From the NCBI GenBank assembly GCA_016789035.1, contig JAEUSC010000193.1, positions 1 through 11,774 of the forward strand: 11,774 nt of DNA, written 5' to 3'. Source of the stretch: Candidatus Omnitrophota bacterium (GTDB lineage: Bacteria; Omnitrophota; Gorgyraeia; Zapsychrales; Fredricksoniimonadaceae). The translations under genes and the position numbers were made by a program. Of the stretch, positions 3-11,014 are shown in pieces. The notes under the pieces were generated by a model. It worked only from the letters and a program-made list of their open reading frames with translations. It had not been told where the DNA came from and did no database searches. Each line of letters opens with the position of its first letter. The first letter of the stretch is position 1.

Positions 3-533
3 CTGACACCACGAAGAATAGGTTCGCTAAGTACAAAGACAACGCATCCTCATTATATTCAAATGGTTCAGTCCTTATTCAATGACATAGAATTTAATAT
101 TAATGTAGTTAATCCATATCAATTTAGAACCAAAGGAGAGATGCTTAAGGAATGCAAAGACCAAGAGTTGCTTAAAAAAATTATTCCTGAATCAGTATCA
201 TGCAGTAACTGGAAGCGAAAAGGAAAACAATGCGGTCGTTGTATTCCTTGTTTAATCCGGCGTGCTGCTTTATCAAAAGCTGGAATACAAGAATCAAATA
301 GCTATTTGTATAATGATTTGAATGCTGTATTAAAAGACCAGAAGAATCGAGACGATCTTTTTGCCATAATAACTGCCGTATCTAAAGTAAATGATAAAAC
401 AATAACTTCTTGGCTTTTGGACAGTGGACCTCTCTCACATGATGAAAAGGCTCGGACTCAGTACAAAGAAATATTTATGAAGGGATTAAGTGAAGTTAAA
501 GACTATTTAATCAAGATAGGTGTGATTCAATGA
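3..533 (+). CDS. qatC: QatC, QueC-like protein of the Qat defence system (5' partial)
   Basis: This is the C-terminal part (176 codons visible) of a QueC-related protein. The frame is open from the window edge, so the ATG at 63 is an internal methionine, not the start. A THPH motif lies just before that methionine. A zinc-binding cluster C-x9-C-x2-C-x2-C follows, with the last cysteines in QCGRCIPC, as in 7-cyano-7-deazaguanine synthase (QueC). The N-terminal nucleotide-binding (PP-loop) half lies outside the window. QueC makes preQ0 for queuosine. In the QatABCD anti-phage system the QueC-like QatC is followed directly by TatD-like QatD, exactly as here, with an ATGA overlap at 530-533. No other queuosine genes are nearby, which favours defence over tRNA modification. 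The assignment to Qat rests on this pairing, because qatA and qatB are not visible. Confidence 0.82.
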   Translation: MTPRRIGSLSTKTTHPHYIQMVQSLFNDIEFNINVVNPYQFRTKGEMLKECKDQELLKKIIPESVSCSNWKRKGKQCGRCIPCLIRRAALSKAGIQESNSYLYNDLNAVLKDQKNRDDLFAIITAVSKVNDKTITSWLLDSGPLSHDEKARTQYKEIFMKGLSEVKDYLIKIGVIQ

Positions 534-1273
534 TCGATATGCATTGCCACCTTGATTTATTTCCTGATCCTGAGAAAGTGGCCAATGATTGTAAGGATAG
601 GAAATTGTGTATCCTTTCTGTTACCACGACTCCGAAAGCTTGGATTGGAACTAAGAATTTAGCCAAAGGAAATCAGAAAATAAAAACATCATTAGGATTT
701 CATCCCCAATTGGCACATGAAAGATGTGCTGAACTGGAAGTCTTTGATGAATTGCTTTCTAAGTCAGAATTTATAGGTGAAATTGGATTGGATGGAGGTA
801 AAAAATTTCAGTCACATAGTAAAGTTCAGAAACATATCTTTTCCCACATTTTAAGAAATGTACAAAAGGATGGTGGACGTATTATGTCAATCCATAGCCA
901 ACATGCTGCTACGGCAGTTTTGAATGAATTAAAACAATATCCAGATGCCGGTATTCCAATCTTACACTGGTTTACAGGTAGTGCTAGTGAATTAAAACAG
1001 GCGGTTTCTCAAGGTTGTTGGTTTTCAGTCGGCCCAGCGATGCTTGCTAGCCAAAAGGGACGAGAGTTATTTCTTAATATGCCGCACGACAGAATACTAA
1101 CTGAAACAGATGGTCCATTCGCAATGGTTAACAATAGGCCTTTGATGCCCTGGGATGTGGAACTAGTTTTTAGCCCCATAGCTAATTTATGGCAAATGGA
1201 CATTAATGTAGTTAAACAAAAAGTTATTAGTAATTTTCATAAGCTTTTAAAAGTTGGGAGGAAAAATGAATAA
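530..1273 (+). CDS. qatD: QatD, TatD-family metal-dependent nuclease
   Basis: This 247-aa protein has the full TatD/amidohydrolase metal set: HxH at residues 5 and 7 (DMHCH), E84 in GEIGLDG, H122 in SIHSQ, H146 in ILHWFTG and D194 in TETDGP. TatD proteins are TIM-barrel, metal-dependent DNases of about 250-265 aa, so the length is normal and the active site looks intact. The start ATG overlaps the qatC stop (ATGA), which implies translational coupling. In Qat defence systems QatD is the fourth gene and is required together with the ATPase QatA, QatB and QueC-like QatC. Its 3' end overlaps the next small gene by 8 bp. A housekeeping TatD is the alternative, but the QueC-like partner and the OLD-family gene downstream argue for defence. 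Confidence 0.85.
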   Translation: MIDMHCHLDLFPDPEKVANDCKDRKLCILSVTTTPKAWIGTKNLAKGNQKIKTSLGFHPQLAHERCAELEVFDELLSKSEFIGEIGLDGGKKFQSHSKVQKHIFSHILRNVQKDGGRIMSIHSQHAATAVLNELKQYPDAGIPILHWFTGSASELKQAVSQGCWFSVGPAMLASQKGRELFLNMPHDRILTETDGPFAMVNNRPLMPWDVELVFSPIANLWQMDINVVKQKVISNFHKLLKVGRKNE

Positions 1274-1535
1274 CGAAGAAATGATTCGAGAGATTGCTAA
1301 ATCTTCCCATGCATTCTCTGAGCCTATCGATCTAAGTGACGTGCTTGAAAAAGGTTTGTTAACTATGAAGGGACGTTCTTATTATGTCCAGAATTTAAAT
1401 TTACTGCCAGAGAAGATACGGGTACGCATAAAACAGTCTACGCCCACAAAATACGGTATTCGTGTGTCTTTTTATTTAAAAGGCTCTAAGGGTTTAAAGA
1501 AGATAGCCAATCAGCTCCGAGAATATCTTGATTAA
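1266..1535 (+). CDS. Small protein of unknown function in the Qat-OLD operon
   Basis: I do not recognise this 89-aa protein. The ATG at 1266 is chosen because a strong GGGAGG ribosome-binding site (1256-1261) sits just upstream; an in-frame TTG at 1254 lacks such a site. The protein is soluble and mildly basic. It has a helical N-terminal part (about residues 1-31), a middle segment rich in beta-type residues (about 37-71, including YYVQNLNLL and YGIRVSFYL), and a C-terminal basic helix (about 75-88). There are no cysteines, membrane segments or signal peptide. It overlaps the end of qatD by 8 bp and lies 12 bp before the OLD-family gene, so it must share their transcript. That position suggests an accessory or partner protein for one of them, possibly a nucleic-acid or protein-binding subunit, but nothing in the sequence proves a role. 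Confidence 0.8.
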   Translation: MNNEEMIREIAKSSHAFSEPIDLSDVLEKGLLTMKGRSYYVQNLNLLPEKIRVRIKQSTPTKYGIRVSFYLKGSKGLKKIANQLREYLD

Positions 1536-1550
1536 GGGAGATACTAATTG
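1534..1550 (+). promoter_or_regulatory. Ribosome-binding site that fixes the TTG start of the OLD-family gene
   Basis: AAGGGAG lies 7 nt before a TTG. No ATG or GTG near this position would give the expected family N-terminus, so the TTG is taken as the true start. The site begins at the stop codon of the preceding small gene, which fits re-initiation by ribosomes finishing that gene. Confidence 0.65.
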
Positions 1551-3146
1551 AGGATCGATAAGATTGAAATAAAGAATTTCCGTTCAATTCAACATGCGGT
1601 AATCCAGCCAGGTACGCTTTGTGCTTTAGTGGGGGAGAACAATTCGGGTAAATCTAATATTTTGCAAGCCATTGATTTGATCCTTGGTGAATCATGGCCT
1701 TCGGTAAAACAGATATCGGACGACGATATACACAATAAACAAGTGGATCAAGATATTGAAATCAAGATCTGGTTTGATTCGGGTTTTGATTTTACCGATG
1801 CCACTGGTCGTAATCATCAAATAAAGGGTTTTTTGCTTAGATATTCACATTATAAGAGAAAAACAGGGTATCACGCTAAAGGAGACCCAAAGGTTGATTT
1901 TATCTGCATAGATTTTAGTGGCGATGAGATAAAAGTTATAAAGAAGCTTCCTAAGGCAGGGAGCGGACAGAAACCATTCCCGGAATTGTTATATGTTACG
2001 TCTGAATACCGCGACGCATTCCCAGTTGTTTTCATAGGGGTAAATAGAGATTTAAAATATCATTTATCGGGGTCGCAATGGACATTGTTCGGTAAACTGC
2101 TCAAAGAAATAGAGAGGGAATTTCTCGAGGATACGGCAAGAAAAGGTTCGTACTTGCAGAAAATGGGCGAACTCGCAAGTTTATTGCGCATTCCATTATT
2201 TGAAGCTCTAGAAAAGAAGATTGAGGATAACGTTAAGAAGCAGACAGGTTTTAAACAGGCAAAATTAGCATTTAAAGAACCTCCAGTGCTTGCGCATTAC
2301 AAAAGTCTGGAATTGAATATTAAGGAATCTGATAGTTGTTCTGAGGCGCCGGCATTAGAAATGGGATCAGGCATTCAAAGTGCTGTTGTTATCGCATTAA
2401 TTCATGCTTATAGAGATTTAAGAAAGTCTGGCAGCATATTAATGATTGAAGAGCCAGAGGTATATTTGCACCCTCACACAAGGAGATTTTTTTATCAGCT
2501 TCTACGCGGTCTAACAGAGAACGGGGATCAAGTTTTTTATACGACACACTCAGTTGAATTCTTGGACCTATCTGACTATCAAACGATTTCGATTGTTCGA
2601 AAAATACCTCAACAGGGCACAAAAGTTTTTCAACCCACAGGACTTCAAATTCAACCCGGTACAAAGAAAGAATTAAAACTATTAACTGAGTTTGATGCTA
2701 GAAGAAACGAGCTGTTCTTTGCAAAAAAGGTCTTAATTGTGGAAGGTCCAACAGAAAGACACTCGTTGCCATTAGCCTTCAAGCTTCTGGGAGCAGATAT
2801 TAATGAATATGGAATTTCAATAGTGGATGTAGGAGGAAAAGAGAATATTCCATTCTTTATGGAAATATTGAAAGCGTTTCAGATTCCCTTCTTCGTGTTA
2901 CACGATGAAGATCGAAATGCAAACAATTATTCAAGTTATCATGATGGAAGTGCGGGTCTAAACAAGAAGATTGAAAACCTAGCGGCTGGACAGGGGATAG
3001 TTTTTAGGCTAGATCCAGATTTTGAGGGTGTTTTAGGTTTATCTGGTGCAGACAAGATTAGAAATGGTAGGGAGAAAATTATGTCTATTACCGATGTTAA
3101 TCAATTGCCTCAGACTATTCGTACTTGTTTACAAAAGTTAATTTGA
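1548..3146 (+). CDS. OLD-family ATP-dependent endonuclease (AAA ATPase + TOPRIM)
   Basis: This 532-aa protein has an N-terminal SMC/ABC-like ATPase and a C-terminal TOPRIM nuclease domain. The Walker A motif GENNSGKS is at residues 29-36, a signature-like GSGIQSA at 273-279, Walker B ILMIEEPE at 297-304 and an H-loop TTHS around 332-335. The TOPRIM part begins with VLIVEGPTER (E399) and has the acidic pair D453/D455 in HDEDRN. This matches OLD (overcoming lysogenization defect) nucleases, and the length is about that of single-gene class 1 OLD proteins. The start is a TTG at 1548 with an AAGGGAG site at 1534-1540; the second codon opens the typical RIDKIEIKNFRSI start of this family. OLD nucleases occur in phage defence, for example GajA of Gabija, but no UvrD-like GajB partner is seen here. 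The 12-bp gap to the small gene upstream places it in the Qat operon. Confidence 0.88.
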   Translation: MRIDKIEIKNFRSIQHAVIQPGTLCALVGENNSGKSNILQAIDLILGESWPSVKQISDDDIHNKQVDQDIEIKIWFDSGFDFTDATGRNHQIKGFLLRYSHYKRKTGYHAKGDPKVDFICIDFSGDEIKVIKKLPKAGSGQKPFPELLYVTSEYRDAFPVVFIGVNRDLKYHLSGSQWTLFGKLLKEIEREFLEDTARKGSYLQKMGELASLLRIPLFEALEKKIEDNVKKQTGFKQAKLAFKEPPVLAHYKSLELNIKESDSCSEAPALEMGSGIQSAVVIALIHAYRDLRKSGSILMIEEPEVYLHPHTRRFFYQLLRGLTENGDQVFYTTHSVEFLDLSDYQTISIVRKIPQQGTKVFQPTGLQIQPGTKKELKLLTEFDARRNELFFAKKVLIVEGPTERHSLPLAFKLLGADINEYGISIVDVGGKENIPFFMEILKAFQIPFFVLHDEDRNANNYSSYHDGSAGLNKKIENLAAGQGIVFRLDPDFEGVLGLSGADKIRNGREKIMSITDVNQLPQTIRTCLQKLI

Positions 3147-3156
3147 AGTGCATTAA

Positions 3157-3348
3157 TTATTTATCCAGTAACTTACTAACTTTAATACCGAGAGCTTCGG
3201 CTATTATTTGCAAGTTCTGCACTCCAATATTTTTTTCTCCACGTTCAATCTGACCAATATAAGCGCGATGCAAATTGGCTTCATGAGCGAGTTGCTCTTG
3301 GCTCAACCCCTTCTTAATTCTAAGCTGGCGGATTTGTAATGCCACCAC
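3157..3348 (-). CDS. Xre-family HTH regulator, 5' end replaced by IS
   Basis: This encodes a 63-aa helix-turn-helix protein of the Xre/Cro type. The whole five-helix domain is present: IRQLRIKKGLSQEQLA, then YIGQIERGE and a final LQIIAEALGIKVSKLL. Such proteins bind operator DNA as dimers and often control restriction-modification or defence genes. The open frame starts at a GTG-GTG pair (3348-3343) that lies in the left end of the IS, directly after an in-frame TAA, with no ribosome-binding site. The codons up to about 3340 are therefore IS DNA, and the native start was probably lost when the IS inserted. Removing the IS and joining the flanks gives a frame with no start codon before an upstream TGA, so the original 5' end cannot be rebuilt with confidence. 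It converges on the OLD-family gene with a 10-bp gap. It may be a silent remnant or may be transcribed from within the IS. Confidence 0.7.
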   Translation of the reverse strand: MVALQIRQLRIKKGLSQEQLAHEANLHRAYIGQIERGEKNIGVQNLQIIAEALGIKVSKLLDK

Positions 3349-3381
3349 TTAAGCAAGCGATTTTTAAGTTAGAACCGGCTC
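3340..3381 (+). repeat. Left terminal inverted repeat of the IS
   Basis: This imperfect repeat pairs with 4435-4487. Matching blocks are T-R-CCACC, TTAAGC, AG-x-G, and then TTAAGTTAGAA followed by GGCTC. The orfB stop codon lies inside it (3364-3366). It also supplies the GTG codons at which the Xre frame begins. Confidence 0.7.
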
Positions 3382-4140
3382 TTTGTTAAACGACTCAAGA
3401 TACTGCTTTGGCGTCATGTTGTTTAAGCTTTGATGCGGATAATCGGTGTTGTAATCGATGATCCAGTTGTTTAAAGCTTCGCTGAAGGCGAAGGGGTTGT
3501 CCCAATCGTAAGTCCAAACCAGATCTTCTTTGAGTGTGCGCATGACGCGTTCGGTGTCCGAATTGCCTTTAGGGTTCGACCAGGTGGTAAAGATCTGTTT
3601 GATGCCCAAGAGCGAGCAATTCATCATGAACCGTTGGCTTGTCGGCTGACAGCCGTTGTCGGAGATCAAGAATAATTCGTGCTCTTTGAGATGTTCCCGG
3701 ATGCCGTTGGGGAAGCGGCCGTTGACAGCCATTTCAACGGCAGATAGCCAGTCATCGGTTTTGGACTGGATACTTAATGAGTATCCGATGATCTCTTTGG
3801 TGCACCAGTCAAGGACAACGCACAAGTAGAGCCAACCCCAAGGGGTGATCTTGATTTTGGTCATGTCGATGCCCCAGAAGTGATTTGGTCTGTGGGATCT
3901 GGGTTTAGAGCGCAATGGACCCCGACGGGCGCGCAGGCGTTGAAGTTTGGTGACGATGAGTTGATGCTCTTTCATAACGCGATAGACACGATTGATGCCG
4001 AAGGTGAGACCCTGACGGTATTTCAAGTAAGCCCAGATGCGCCGGTAACCCCAGAGAGGGTGGTCGGTCTTGATGGGCATGAGGATCGCCAGCAAATCTT
4101 GATCGCGTTGTTGGGTTGATTGGGAACGTTGGCGTTTCAT
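3364..4140 (-). CDS. IS3-family OrfB transposase (DDE integrase core)
   Basis: This 258-aa protein carries the retroviral-integrase-like rve core. The catalytic residues are D92 (WGIDMTKI), D161 (LISDNG) and E197 (NSDTERV); 35 residues separate the last two, the typical DD(35)E of IS3. The upstream HPLWGYRRI segment is the usual HTH_21-like region, and the tail YPHQSLNNMTPKQYLES is the common C-terminal motif. It starts at an ATG overlapping the orfA stop. That ATG lies in the -1 frame relative to orfA, so the same protein sequence is also made as the second half of an OrfAB frameshift fusion. No internal stop or deletion is seen, so the transposase is probably functional. Confidence 0.93.
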   Translation of the reverse strand: MKRQRSQSTQQRDQDLLAILMPIKTDHPLWGYRRIWAYLKYRQGLTFGINRVYRVMKEHQLIVTKLQRLRARRGPLRSKPRSHRPNHFWGIDMTKIKITPWGWLYLCVVLDWCTKEIIGYSLSIQSKTDDWLSAVEMAVNGRFPNGIREHLKEHELFLISDNGCQPTSQRFMMNCSLLGIKQIFTTWSNPKGNSDTERVMRTLKEDLVWTYDWDNPFAFSEALNNWIIDYNTDYPHQSLNNMTPKQYLESFNKEPVLT

Positions 4141-4412
4141 AGTTCGTATTCGCTTTTTTTTAACTCAATGGTCAAGTCGCCGATGATGGTTCGCATTTTG
4201 GAGATTTCGGCTTCAAGGCGTTGTTCTTTATCGGTCTTTTTCTTGATCTCGAAGGATTCATGGCAGTTGGCCAGGAATTGGTCGCGCCATTTGTAATACT
4301 GGGTCTGGGCGATCTGATATTTCTGGCAAAGTTTGCTGATCTCGATCTGGCCGGATAAACCTTCGAGAACGATCTGTGATTTTTGTTTGCTACTCCATTG
4401 TCTGTTTTTCAT
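4137..4412 (-). CDS. IS3-family OrfA (HTH protein)
   Basis: This 91-aa protein has an N-terminal helix-turn-helix (about residues 8-45, including the WSSKQKSQIVLEGLSG and YQIAQTQYYKWRDQFL segments). A charged C-terminal leucine-zipper-like helix follows (about 58-90), as in OrfA proteins that bind the IS ends and multimerise. The ATG at 4412 is preceded by AAAGGAG. The end of the gene contains an A8-G run (4154-4161 on the complementary strand) in the codons for LKKS, a classic -1 frameshift site. Slippage there joins the OrfA N-terminus to OrfB to give the OrfAB transposase. It overlaps orfB by 4 bp (ATGA). Confidence 0.9.
   Translation of the reverse strand: MKNRQWSSKQKSQIVLEGLSGQIEISKLCQKYQIAQTQYYKWRDQFLANCHESFEIKKKTDKEQRLEAEISKMRTIIGDLTIELKKSEYEL
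4154..4161 (-). promoter_or_regulatory. Programmed -1 frameshift slippery run (A8-G)
   Basis: On the coding strand the orfA frame reads TTA AAA AAA AGC. Slipping back one base gives AAA AAG CGA ATA CGA ACT ATG, which runs straight into the orfB frame. IS3-family elements commonly use A-rich runs of this type to make OrfAB. Confidence 0.7.
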
Positions 4413-4434
4413 CGAATCGGCTCCTTTTTCGTAT

Positions 4435-4487
4435 GAGCCAATTCTAACTTAACTATCTCTGGAGTGCCACTGGCTTAACCGGTGGTA
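4435..4487 (-). repeat. Right terminal inverted repeat of the IS
   Basis: Read inward on the - strand, it starts TACCACC and ends in TTAAGTTAGAATTGGCTC. Compared with the left end it has about 11 extra nucleotides between the TTAAGC and TTAAGTTAGAA blocks. It lies upstream of orfA, where IS3 elements carry their promoter. Confidence 0.7.
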
Positions 4488-6729: not shown

Positions 6730-6805
6730 CTTTCCTGGTTTCTTGCCTGTCAAAAACTTGCAGACACATAAATCCTCAGATGGCATTCGTAAAGGTTTTA
6801 TTGTT

Positions 6806-8083
6806 ATGGTTCGCAATGTCCCTCACAATTTGAAGATTTTCGTCATCGCGGTCATCCTTCTATCTGTCACTATGCCTGTGCGCGGCGGTGAGGTCCTCAC
6901 ATGGGAGCAATGTTTGCAAGAGGCCGCGCGCAATAATCCTGATTTGATTTCCGCCCAGGAAGGCATTGTCCAAAGCAACGCCGCCAAAACGATTACAGCA
7001 AGTGGCATATTTCCGCAAATATCGGCAGACCTTAGCGCCTCAACCGCCAATGGAGACAGTTCCGGTGTCAGCAAGTCTTTCAGTTACGGTCTATCCGCAA
7101 GCCAGCTTTTGTTTGACGGTTTTTCTATCTTTAATCGCATTCACGCCGCCAACGAAGATCTCACGGCCGTTAAACAGAATTTTCTTTTCACATCTGCAGA
7201 CATCCGTTACCGCATTCGGGAGGCCTTTGTTGATCTTCTTGAGGCCCAGCAGCTTTTAATATTGACGCAGGGCATTCGTGATTTGCGCCAAAAAAATGTG
7301 GACCTGATTACTCTTCGTTACCAATCCGGCACAGAACATAAAGGGGCATTGATGAAGGCGCAGGCCAATCTGGCTCAGGCGATCTTTGAAATTCATCAGG
7401 CCGAACGCGGGATTGTGGCAGCCCAACGGCAACTGGCCAAAGAGTTGGGACGGCGCGAGGCCGATCTTGTGACTGTGGAGGGCAACTGGACGCTCATCGA
7501 TCAGCAACCGGGCGAACCGGACTTAAACAGAATTGCAGAAAGTCATCCGTCATTATTAGCGGCACGGGCCCAAAAGAATGCCTCTGGTTACGAGGCCAAG
7601 GCGAGTCAGGGAGACCTTTTACCTGCCGTTATTTTGACGGGGGATGTATTGCGGTCCGGCCAGCGCTGGGCGCCGAAGGATGACGATTCATCCGCCGGTC
7701 TTCGCGTATCGTTACCGATCTTTGAAGGCGGTCTGCGGACCGCCCGTGTGGCGCAGGCCAAAAGTGTTTACCGCCAGCTCACCCAGGATGAACGCAGCGT
7801 TCATGACGGCCTTCTTCTGAATCTGCAGCAAGCCTGGAACAATTACAGAGATGGGGTTGAAAACGTGAGCGTGCGCCGGCAGTTTTTGGACGCCGCCGAG
7901 GAACGGGCGAAGATTGCGCGTCAGCAGTATTCGGTGGGGCTTATTGATTTCGATAATTGGACAATCATTGAAGATGACTGGGTGGATAATCAAAAGTCAT
8001 TTCTCAATGTGCAGGCCGCGGCGCTCTTGGCTCAAGCCAATTGGATCCGGGCTAAAGGAGGGACTCTTGAAATCGAACCGTAA
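6806..8083 (+). CDS. TolC-like outer-membrane efflux protein
   Basis: This 425-aa protein is of the outer-membrane efflux protein (OEP) family. A signal peptide covers about residues 1-27 (hydrophobic IFVIAVILLSV core), followed by the typical LTWEQCLQEAARNNPDLISA start of the first OEP repeat. The first repeat includes SYGLSASQLLFDGF and a long coiled-coil hairpin (about 110-205). The second has the equivalent GLRVSLPIFEGGLRTARVAQAKS and another long helical region to the end. TolC proteins form trimeric channel-tunnels across the outer membrane and periplasm. The ATG at 6806 is preferred, with AAAGG at 6791-6795 and a good signal peptide; a TTG at 6743 would add 21 unlikely residues. The length is near the family norm. 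It overlaps the adaptor gene by 17 bp, so it opens a three-gene exporter operon. Confidence 0.9.
   Translation: MVRNVPHNLKIFVIAVILLSVTMPVRGGEVLTWEQCLQEAARNNPDLISAQEGIVQSNAAKTITASGIFPQISADLSASTANGDSSGVSKSFSYGLSASQLLFDGFSIFNRIHAANEDLTAVKQNFLFTSADIRYRIREAFVDLLEAQQLLILTQGIRDLRQKNVDLITLRYQSGTEHKGALMKAQANLAQAIFEIHQAERGIVAAQRQLAKELGRREADLVTVEGNWTLIDQQPGEPDLNRIAESHPSLLAARAQKNASGYEAKASQGDLLPAVILTGDVLRSGQRWAPKDDDSSAGLRVSLPIFEGGLRTARVAQAKSVYRQLTQDERSVHDGLLLNLQQAWNNYRDGVENVSVRRQFLDAAEERAKIARQQYSVGLIDFDNWTIIEDDWVDNQKSFLNVQAAALLAQANWIRAKGGTLEIEP
8054..8069 (+). promoter_or_regulatory. Ribosome-binding site that fixes the TTG start of the adaptor
   Basis: AAAGGAGGG (8054-8062) is a near-perfect Shine-Dalgarno sequence 5 nt before TTG at 8067. 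It lies inside the end of the TolC-like gene, so the two genes overlap by 17 bp. Confidence 0.7.
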
Positions 8084-9023
8084 AAAATGGATCGGGATGA
8101 TCATTGTCGTCCTCACGGTTGTTGTGTGGTGGGCCTGGGGACATGCCAAGCATGCATCCCGGCAGAATGAACAAAGGATTGTCTCCCCGCACCGCGGCGA
8201 CATCCGCAAAGTTGTGACAACCACCGGATCGCTGTTGCCCAAAAACCGTTTGGAGATCAAGCCTCCGGTGAGCGGACGTTTGGAACAGATATTGGTCCAG
8301 GAAGGGGATTCTGTGAAGGCCGGTCAGACGATTGCCTGGATGAGTTCTACCGAGCGCGCGGCACTTTTGGATGCGGCCCGCGGTCAGGGGGAAGAATCGC
8401 TCAAATATTGGCAGGAGGTCTACAAGCCGATTCCACTGATTGCACCCATCGACGGCGAGGTGATTGTGGGAACCATTCAGCCGGGGCAAACGCTGACGAC
8501 GGCCGATCCGGTAGTTGTTCTGTCGGACCGTTTGATCGTCCGCGCGCAGGTGGATGAAACTGATATCGGGCGGATCCAAAAAGGACAAAAGGCCACCATC
8601 AGCTTGGATGCTTATCCGGACACGCGGATTGATGCAACCGTCGATCATATTTATTACGAGTCCCAGGTGGTTAATAATGTCACCATTTACAAAGTGGACC
8701 TGCTTCCTTCAGATGTTCCGGTTTTCTTTCGTTCAGGGATGAGTGCCAATATTGAGTTCGTTCAGGAAAGCAAAGAAAATATTCTGGTGTTGCCTATCTC
8801 TGCCGTGCAAAAAAAAGACGGTGAATCATTTGTTTTACGACGCGACAGCCGGGGGAAGGTGGAGAAAAGGGATGTCGAAATTGGTCTGGAAGATGACCGC
8901 AATGTGGAAATTGTCTCCGGTGTGACTGAAGACGACGAGATTGTGTTGCGCACGCAAAAGTACTCGCCTCCCAAGGCCTCCAGCGGCGGGAATCCTATGA
9001 TGCCGCAACGCCGAAAAAGATAG
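8067..9023 (+). CDS. macA: MacA-like periplasmic adaptor (membrane fusion protein), short hairpin
   Basis: This 318-aa protein has an N-terminal membrane anchor (about residues 9-25). A lipoyl half-motif follows (66-90, PPVSGRLEQILVQEGDSVKAGQ), with the second half at about 122-142 (PLIAPIDGEVIVGTIQPGQ). A beta-barrel domain (about 155-232) and a membrane-proximal domain (about 238-295) complete it. The stretch between the lipoyl halves, where MacA usually has a long alpha-hairpin, is only about 30 residues. This makes the protein some 50 aa shorter than E. coli MacA. The start is TTG at 8067, chosen because AAAGGAGGG lies 5 nt upstream; starting further upstream would add residues read from the TolC-like frame, and an ATG at 8097 would cut the anchor. 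The adaptor would link the TolC-like channel to MacB. It is followed by macB after 23 bp. Confidence 0.87.
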   Translation: MKSNRKKWIGMIIVVLTVVVWWAWGHAKHASRQNEQRIVSPHRGDIRKVVTTTGSLLPKNRLEIKPPVSGRLEQILVQEGDSVKAGQTIAWMSSTERAALLDAARGQGEESLKYWQEVYKPIPLIAPIDGEVIVGTIQPGQTLTTADPVVVLSDRLIVRAQVDETDIGRIQKGQKATISLDAYPDTRIDATVDHIYYESQVVNNVTIYKVDLLPSDVPVFFRSGMSANIEFVQESKENILVLPISAVQKKDGESFVLRRDSRGKVEKRDVEIGLEDDRNVEIVSGVTEDDEIVLRTQKYSPPKASSGGNPMMPQRRKR

Positions 9024-9046
9024 CCAACCATCAGCCGTGTGATTGC

Positions 9047-11014
9047 ATGATTGAATTGACGAACATTATTAAGACGTACAGCAGCGGGGAGACCGAGGTC
9101 CGGGCGGTCAACGGCGTTACTTTATTGATTGCCTCCGGAGAATTTGTGGCCATCATGGGCGCTTCGGGCTCAGGCAAATCAACGCTCATGCATATTTTGG
9201 GACTGCTGGACCGTCCCAGTGAAGGGAGCTACCGCCTGGCGGGTTGCGATATTACGCATCTGTCCGATGATGAACGCGCGGCCTTGCGCAACCGCACCAT
9301 CGGATTTGTGTTTCAGCAGTTTCATTTGCTGGCGCGTAAGACCGCATTGGATAATGCGGCCCTTCCCTTGGTTTATGCAGGGATTCATGCTTCAAAACAA
9401 AAGGCTGTTGAGGAATTGACGGCCGTGGGGCTGCAGCACCGTCTGCATCATCGCCCCAACCAGCTCTCGGGCGGGCAGCAACAGCGGGTTGCCATTGCCA
9501 GGGCATTGGTCAATGATCCTTTGATTATTATGGCTGATGAGCCGACGGGAAATCTTGACACAAAGAGTAAGGGCGAGATTATCGATATTCTCAAGGATCT
9601 CAATCGCCGCGGAAAGACCATTGTCATGGTCACTCATGAACCGGACATGGCCGCGCATGCCGGGCGGGTCATTGTGATGCGTGACGGTGTTGTCATTTCC
9701 GATGAGCGCCATAAGAAGGTCGAGGCCGTTAACAATGATGACGCTTATCAGATTGTTAAACAGCTCCGGCATGCGGCTGTCAGGACATTTGATCAGGACA
9801 AGTTTAAAGATTCGTTTCGTCAGGCGCTGGAAGCCATGTTGGGCAACAAGCTTCGTTCCTTTCTGTCCATATTGGGGATTTTAATCGGGGTGACGGCAGT
9901 CATCGCGATGCTGGCGCTCGGGACGGGGGCTCAGGATTCGATTCAGAAACAATTATCCTCGCTGGGCTCAAACCTTTTGATGGTCCGCCCCGGTCAGATG
10001 CGGGTGCAGGGTGTGGCGCTAGAGTCGGGATCTGTCACGCGGTTGACTTTTCAGGATATGCAGGCGATTGCGCGCATTGCGTCGGTTCGACGGGTGAGCG
10101 CGTCCGTGAGCGGACGCGTGCAGGCGGTTTACGGCAGCAGCAATACCAATACGCAGATCGAAGGGGTCAATCCTGAATACGCGCCCATGCGGGCGTCCAT
10201 TCCCGTTGTTGGACGATTTTTTACCGAAGAAGAGGTCCGCAGTCGTGAAAAAGTGGCTGTGCTGGGTGCGACGGTGGTCACCAATTTGTTTGGGGATAAA
10301 GATCCAATCGGAGAGACGATTAAAATCAATATGAATAATTTTAAGGTGATTGGTATTGCGCCTCCCAAGGGCGGAAGTTCCTGGCGCGATCAGGACGATA
10401 TTATCCTGTTGCCGGTTACAACCGCGATGTACCGTCTTTTGGGTAAGACTTACATTGATACCATTTATGTGGAAGGGGTTTCGGCTGATCTTCTGGATGA
10501 AACCCAAGAGGAGGTCAAACAAACGCTGCTGACCCGTTATCGAATCAAAAATGCCTCGGAAGGTGACGAGGCCGTCGATGTGCGCAATATGGCTGACCTG
10601 AAGGCCGCATTGGAAACCACAACGAAAACCATGTCCATGCTTTTGGGTTCGATTGCCGCGATTTCTCTGTTGGTCGGCGGGATCGGAATCATGAATATCA
10701 TGCTGGTTTCGGTCACGGAGCGCACGCGCGAAATTGGGCTTCGCAAATCAATCGGTGCCACCCGTACGGATATCCTTATGCAATTTATGGTCGAATCTGT
10801 TTTGATGGCGACGATTGGAGGTGTGGCAGGAATTCTCCTGGGTTCGGGGATTTCATTGCTCATTACTCTTGTGGCCGGATGGACGGTTAAGATTGCGATT
10901 TCTTCCGTCCTTTTAGCCACGGGTTTTTCACTCATTGTGGGAATGGTTTTCGGCATTTGGCCTGCCAATAAAGCCGCACGGTTGAACCCCATTGATGCGT
11001 TAAGATACGATTAA
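9047..11014 (+). CDS. macB: MacB-type ABC exporter, fused ATPase and permease
   Basis: This 655-aa protein is a full-length MacB half-transporter. The ATPase occupies about residues 1-225: Walker A GASGSGKS (38-45), Q-loop FQQ (89-91), signature LSGGQ (140-144), Walker B LIIMADEP (159-166) and H-loop H197. A linker leads to the first membrane helix (about 272-294). A large periplasmic domain (about 295-520, MacB_PCD) follows, then three membrane helices near 525-555, 575-605 and 615-640 in an FtsX-type permease. The final motif [13 protein letters not shown] is typical. MacB dimers use ATP in the cytoplasm to drive periplasmic movements that push substrates such as macrolides, lipopeptides or toxins through the adaptor and TolC. 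The actual substrate is unknown. It is the last gene of the operon; its ATG has no strong ribosome-binding site, so coupling to the adaptor gene is likely. Confidence 0.95.

Follow-up and report, generated by a model that had tools for sequence, protein, structure and literature searches.

The contig JAEUSC010000193.1 of a Candidatus Omnitrophota bacterium begins inside a Qat defense operon, and two further genes lie behind it in the same orientation: one for an 89-amino-acid protein (P89) and one for an OLD-family nuclease. The window analyzed here is the whole contig (11,774 bp), taken from a 2.17-Mb genome in 517 contigs (80.7% complete). Re-reading of the frames confirmed the layout given in a preliminary description of this DNA. 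Truncated qatC, qatD, P89, and the OLD gene form a row on one strand, with overlaps of 4 and 8 bp and then a 12-bp gap, and the OLD gene lies 274 bp after qatD. As the contig starts within qatC, the missing 5' portion of that gene, together with qatA and qatB, would be located beyond the contig edge. A Shine–Dalgarno-like GGGAGG precedes the P89 start inside the end of qatD, and an alternative TTG (1254) is in the same frame. The TTG start of the OLD gene is preceded by GGGAG. Coordinates of all features are given in Table 1.

Table 1. Features at the left end of the window
Feature	Position	Strand	Basis or remark
qatC, C-terminal ~40% only, 176 codons	3..533	+	Frame open at contig start, stop ends at 533; PADLOC and NCBIfam QatC, solved QatC chains
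qatD, TatD-family nuclease, 247 amino acids, complete	530..1273	+	ATG 530; NCBIfam and PADLOC QatD, motifs
P89, 89-amino-acid orphan protein	1266..1535	+	ATG 1266; coding bias
OLD-family ATPase-Toprim nuclease, 532 amino acids, complete	1548..3146	+	TTG 1548; Pfam domains, TsOLD alignment, motifs
Small helix-turn-helix (HTH) gene (Xre/controller-type)	3157..3348	-	Convergent with the OLD gene; 5' end abuts the insertion sequence (IS) element
IS3-type element, two transposase frames (4137-4412 and 3364-4140)	3356..4460	-	Imperfect 26-nt inverted repeats

The qatC fragment scored 193 bits with the PADLOC QatC model (model positions 267–447). It also scored 193 bits with the NCBIfam QatC model, a score below its cut-off of 280, with positions 219–398 of 398 on the contig. 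The fragment aligned with the C-terminal part of the solved QatC chains 9vlk and 9zee (from residues 266 and 268 on, respectively) and contained the Cys motif CGRCIPC. QueC-specific models gave 13–16 bits. Pfam QueC gave 30 bits, but this Pfam family spans the whole superfamily. Queuosine biosynthesis, which the preliminary description had named as a possible role of the upstream genes, is therefore unlikely for qatC. QatD reached 331 bits with the NCBIfam QatD model, above its cut-off of 230, and 310 bits with the PADLOC model. Its HCH, GEIGLD, SIHS, LHWF, and TETDGP motifs, which we take to be metal-ligand motifs, were all present. Judged by these models, neither is a chance frame; qatD is a true Qat gene, and the qatC fragment very probably belongs to one as well. 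Their order is that of the Qat system (QatABCD), and the 4-bp qatC–qatD overlap was also seen in several other qat loci. The window differs from that system in the two same-strand genes after qatD and in the part that is off the contig. In the window's own genome, the PADLOC QatB models PDLC02212 and PDLC02211 found no match; PDLC02211 matched no control genome either, and PDLC02213, the best QatB model for this phylum, was not run there. Phage records held five distant TatD-like matches (24–30%).

The OLD protein combined Pfam AAA_15 (126 bits, residues 1–337) and OLD-like_TOPRIM (77 bits, residues 390–455) in one chain. The identities proposed earlier for QatC, QatD, and the OLD family were thus all supported. 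A Walker A motif (GENNSGKS) starts at residue 29 and ILMIEEPE at residue 297; the Toprim residues are E399/E403, D453/D455, and D491/E493. In comparisons made with a profile of 30 OLD proteins, the window's first, the protein aligned end to end with the OLD protein of Thermus scotoductus (TsOLD, 6p74; residues 3–526 to 2–517, 314 bits), whereas GajA chains gave 51–53 bits in two pieces only. The metal-site residues of TsOLD are given as E377, D431, and D433 for one site and D381, S478, and E480 for the other in the available text of its description (PMC7049728). In the profile alignment, made with no structure model, their counterparts in the window protein were E399, D453, and D455 and E403, D491, and E493, respectively. 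The latter three also correspond in kind to E402, D541, and E543 of P2 Old, as far as the same text gives them (PMC7049728).

The OLD gene is intact. By alignment, its product most resembles the stand-alone ("Class 1") T. scotoductus enzyme, with similar length (532 vs 528 residues), full-length coverage, and filled metal-site positions. In the portions available, the literature describes Class 1 OLD proteins as single-gene ATPase-nucleases, with TsOLD cutting DNA and P2 Old being activated on RecBC inhibition and said to cleave a host tRNA (PMC10568477, PMC13261556). One of these sources, in its available part, defines Class 1 OLD genes as isolated, away from other defense genes (PMC10568477). 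The window gene, in contrast, sits directly behind P89 and qatD inside a defense-gene cluster. Because it is not an isolated gene, we call it Class-1-like by sequence, not Class 1 by context. GajA of Gabija shares the ATPase and Toprim superfamily with the window protein, but its similarity is partial and weaker, and no GajB helicase stands beside the window gene, where the next genes encode the HTH protein and transposase. No UvrD helicase or reverse transcriptase partner was found among the nine window proteins scanned, a search that did not cover the DNA upstream of qatC. No OLD match was found in viral contigs.

P89 looks like a coding gene. A codon-usage score trained on the three neighboring genes was 15.8 in frame and below 0 in the five other frames, and none of 5000 base shuffles scored as high. 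Among 5.8 billion proteins, only one cluster matched, an identical shorter reading of P89 itself on a 6,369-bp contig. Only 1 of 364 genomes of its own phylum, its own, had it, and viral contigs, PADLOC, and PHROGs gave no match; NCBIfam gave a chance-level match only (E 0.05). Resemblances to MepB-like proteins (Pfam, 17.4 bits; cut-off 27) and DUF4046 (16.9 bits; cut-off 22.8) were both under the cut-off and were rejected. A structure model made from the single sequence was uninformative (mean pLDDT, a per-residue confidence score, 45). We consider P89 most likely a fast-evolving accessory gene, whose product is predicted to be a regulator or inhibitor.

A weak match to P89 (E 0.04) was an 83-amino-acid Vibrio plasmid protein encoded 44 bp before qatA, the best of 5,890 frames from 31 Qat loci. 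A two-sequence profile of both recovered 27 proteins: 26 related to the Vibrio protein, plus P89. When 23 of the 26 were built into a model, P89 reached 9.4 bits; 5 of 20,000 shuffles scored as high, and two unrelated frames scored higher. Being the best of 5,890, the Vibrio protein was treated as a chance match, although its place beside qat is curious. The named members of its family (L162:755-1006) were all from Vibrio or Grimontia, and it had a CapR-like match below the cut-off.

OLD relatives were encoded at 231 places in public genomes, the best 80 of which were compared; 63 of these 80 hold at least 1.5 kb of upstream DNA. Neither QatC nor QatD was detected in the stretches at hand for the best 80 (phmmer, E 1e-5). 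QatD was also absent at E 1e-50 from the 16 whole genomes searched behind such loci (L002–L013, L063, L033, L051, and L060). Within the phylum, 2 of 384 genomes encoded this OLD subtype at more than 1,000 bits, the window's own and G100, and the next best match had 131 bits. Beyond the window's own protein, eleven OLD proteins were 66–77% identical to it (P0003–P0013). The closest relative whose locus was covered was P0008 (73% identical), at locus L002 in G100. There, the OLD gene starts 2 bp after a gene for a 308-amino-acid protein that matches no Pfam family; an AAA ATPase gene and a type I specificity gene come before these two, and no Qat gene lies within 10 kb. At L003 the OLD relative stands behind an HTH gene, and the genes before the OLD relatives of L002–L008 vary from locus to locus. 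In L004:3495-6973, a gap of 189 bp separates an archaeal relative (53%) from a downstream UvrD helicase gene; thus, Class-1-like and Gabija-like contexts both occur among the relatives.

The preliminary description had suggested that P89 and the OLD gene are an independent two-gene defense unit. Such a self-contained pair, a small antitoxin or regulator with a nuclease, would have moved behind Qat. The two genes are only 12 bp apart. Harmful effects of OLD proteins on their host cell also make a guard protein plausible: P2 Old is reported, in the accessible parts of the sources, to be lethal in recBC-deficient E. coli, and YbjD to be cytotoxic (PMC13261556, PMC7049728). However, no P89 match was found in the 80 OLD loci even at E 10, the protein collection held no relative, and the preceding genes differ among the OLD loci. 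P89 is an orphan that accompanies OLD nowhere else in the sample, so these sequence comparisons do not support an "89-aa/OLD pair", and we regard the two-gene unit as unlikely.

The preliminary description had also proposed P89 and the OLD protein as extra Qat effectors and had called for a count of how often they follow qatD. Other Qat loci were collected with QatD searches. In the window's phylum, 5 of 368 genomes were over the cut-off, the window's own included; a separate search of 92 relatives found 2, both among these five. The class that includes the Oceanospirillum genome of L051 gave 4 among 369 genomes; in the phylum that includes the Flavisolibacter genome of L033, 11 of 375 matched at E 1e-50, of which 10 exceeded the cut-off. 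On plasmids, 148 records matched QatD (100 at E 1e-40); 23 were hand-picked among the matches listed, nearly one per genus (Agrobacterium twice); near-duplicates, such as Deinococcus records, and all weaker matches were left out. The sample consisted of 42 other loci (19 genome and 23 plasmid loci), and QatC and QatD were re-found in all of them. Downstream DNA was short in two (L159, 284 bp; L157, 1,455 bp).

No OLD match was found downstream of qatD on either strand in any of the 42 loci with the profile of 30 OLD proteins. No convincing P89 was found in them either, the sole match being a weak Vibrio one (E 0.05). In this sample the arrangement is thus almost never seen, which speaks against the effector proposal. 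In the four other Qat loci of the window's own phylum, QatB was present in all four and QatA in both loci scanned, and other genes followed qatD. By eye, the frames beside two of these operons (L137 and L138) resembled type I restriction-modification genes.

An extended Qat system, in which the OLD protein is a dedicated effector (activated by QatBC, for example) and P89 an adaptor or inhibitor, would account for the gene overlaps and the single strand. It would also fit the QatBC activity without QatA or QatD reported in the available text of PMC13279940, which leaves the final step unknown. On the other hand, none of the 42 loci, the four of its own phylum included, has such an extension, and the OLD relatives live without Qat. 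We therefore consider this reading improbable. Its lineage-specific version, in which an OLD nuclease dedicated to Qat responds to the QatBC complex or to its modified QatB, with P89 as a coupling or restraining subunit, seems to us more doubtful still.

OLD-type genes did occur on the other side of qat. At least 4 of the 42 loci carried such a gene upstream of qat in divergent orientation (L173, 106 bits; L161, 26 bits; L160, 22 bits; L153, only 18 bits); because the plasmid loci extend only about 1 kb beyond qatA on that side, these counts are lower bounds. In three Rhizobiaceae plasmids (Agrobacterium and Rhizobium; L170–L172), the gene divergent from qatA is annotated as an ATP-dependent endonuclease (two) or an AAA family ATPase (one, the weakest match). 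It is followed by a gene annotated as an ATP-dependent helicase (two) or a UvrD-helicase (one), an arrangement that is Gabija-like. In L173, the OLD-type gene is likewise divergent from qatA, in the same position as in the Rhizobiaceae plasmids. These upstream pairs are independent systems near qat, with another orientation and make-up than the genes in the window. OLD-type or Gabija-like genes are possibly a recurrent neighbor of Qat.

The GC content was 0.345–0.381 in the four genes, 0.479 in the element assigned to the IS3 type from its frames and domains, and 0.49 to its right. Six stretches from other contigs of this genome had values of 0.40–0.48. The right part of the contig matched 20 of 24 family genomes, the window's own included, many matches being short; the best other matches were 65% over 3.2 kb (G019) and 2.8 kb (G001). 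Because of these matches, the contig belongs with this family. Positions 6743–11014 hold genes read by eye as outer-membrane-factor, membrane-fusion, and MacB-like ABC genes, matched across the family as ordinary chromosome. Where its 5' end touches the IS3-type element, the HTH gene may have been truncated or had its promoter displaced. Judging from GC content, the IS element, and the family match of the right part, the left end of the contig looks like an acquired low-GC island. An assembly or binning artefact joining unrelated pieces could also leave low GC on the left only in such a fragmented, incomplete genome. However, the genes overlap or nearly touch, and a misjoin would therefore need to coincide with an overlap. 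P89 and the OLD protein are also recorded in the protein collection on the 6,369-bp contig and on two contigs (the second itself unread), respectively, and the right part is family sequence; an artefact is highly improbable.

Sequence scans found 14 promoter-like sites in the window vs 11.1 (standard deviation 3.1) in shuffles and 3 terminator-like sites vs 3.6. No terminator-like site falls between the qatD stop and the OLD start, and one promoter-like site (1356–1385, + strand) lies inside P89. On the question of a promoter and terminator separating the genes, raised in the preliminary description, the operon is thus neither proven nor split; a shared transcript of the four genes is plausible from their spacing.

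Taken together, the locus is probably a Qat operon with an independent OLD nuclease behind it in a low-GC defense island, that is, two ordinary systems side by side. We prefer this to one new system because the arrangement is absent from the other genomes sampled. The qat operon would presumably be of the usual four-gene kind, continuing off the contig. The genes would lie in a horizontally acquired island on one transcript with translational coupling. Qat would act as published: QatC with its partner QatB, presumably modifying the QatB N-terminus, and QatA and QatD influencing the phage range. In the available text of PMC13279940, QatB and QatC form a complex that is sufficient against some phages, and the N-terminal glycine motif of QatB is essential. 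That source proposes a modification resembling CBASS deazaguanylation and has QatA and QatD affecting the range; qatA and qatD are reported as neighbors of qatC genes in the accessible part of PMC13329287. The OLD protein would act alone like stand-alone OLD enzymes, in which the ABC-type ATPase gates the Toprim nuclease. On an infection trigger, this nuclease would cleave DNA or tRNA, by analogy. A shared transcript would give joint dosage, not joint mechanism.

Several observations weigh against two adjoining systems. The genes are packed more closely than would be required of two unrelated modules, as P89 starts inside qatD and the OLD gene follows 12 bp on. The upstream divergent OLD-type genes in at least 4 of the 42 loci are perhaps more than island clustering alone would give. 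A narrow Qat-linked OLD clade may still exist, the locus context covering 1 of the 11 closest OLD relatives. For the single transcript, the promoter-like site inside P89 could serve the OLD gene alone; such sites are at shuffle level.

In the open-access literature, we found no paper joining Qat, Gabija, OLD, and operon adjacency. The available portions of PMC13279940 and PMC13329287 showed no OLD partner of Qat, and the word OLD does not appear in that of PMC13329287. The preliminary idea of a new system combining a QueC-like enzyme with two nucleases was not supported in this sample. The parts are known, and their adjacency, seen in this sample only in this organism, is a defense-island arrangement and not evidence for a new system. 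If both did cooperate, the OLD protein would supply Qat with an effector, the available text of PMC13279940 describing the full Qat pathway as unknown; the present data do not favor such cooperation. The locus is an example of two known defense systems looking as if they were one operon, with a stand-alone-type OLD gene inside a defense cluster, a context that such genes are said to lack in the part of PMC10568477 available.

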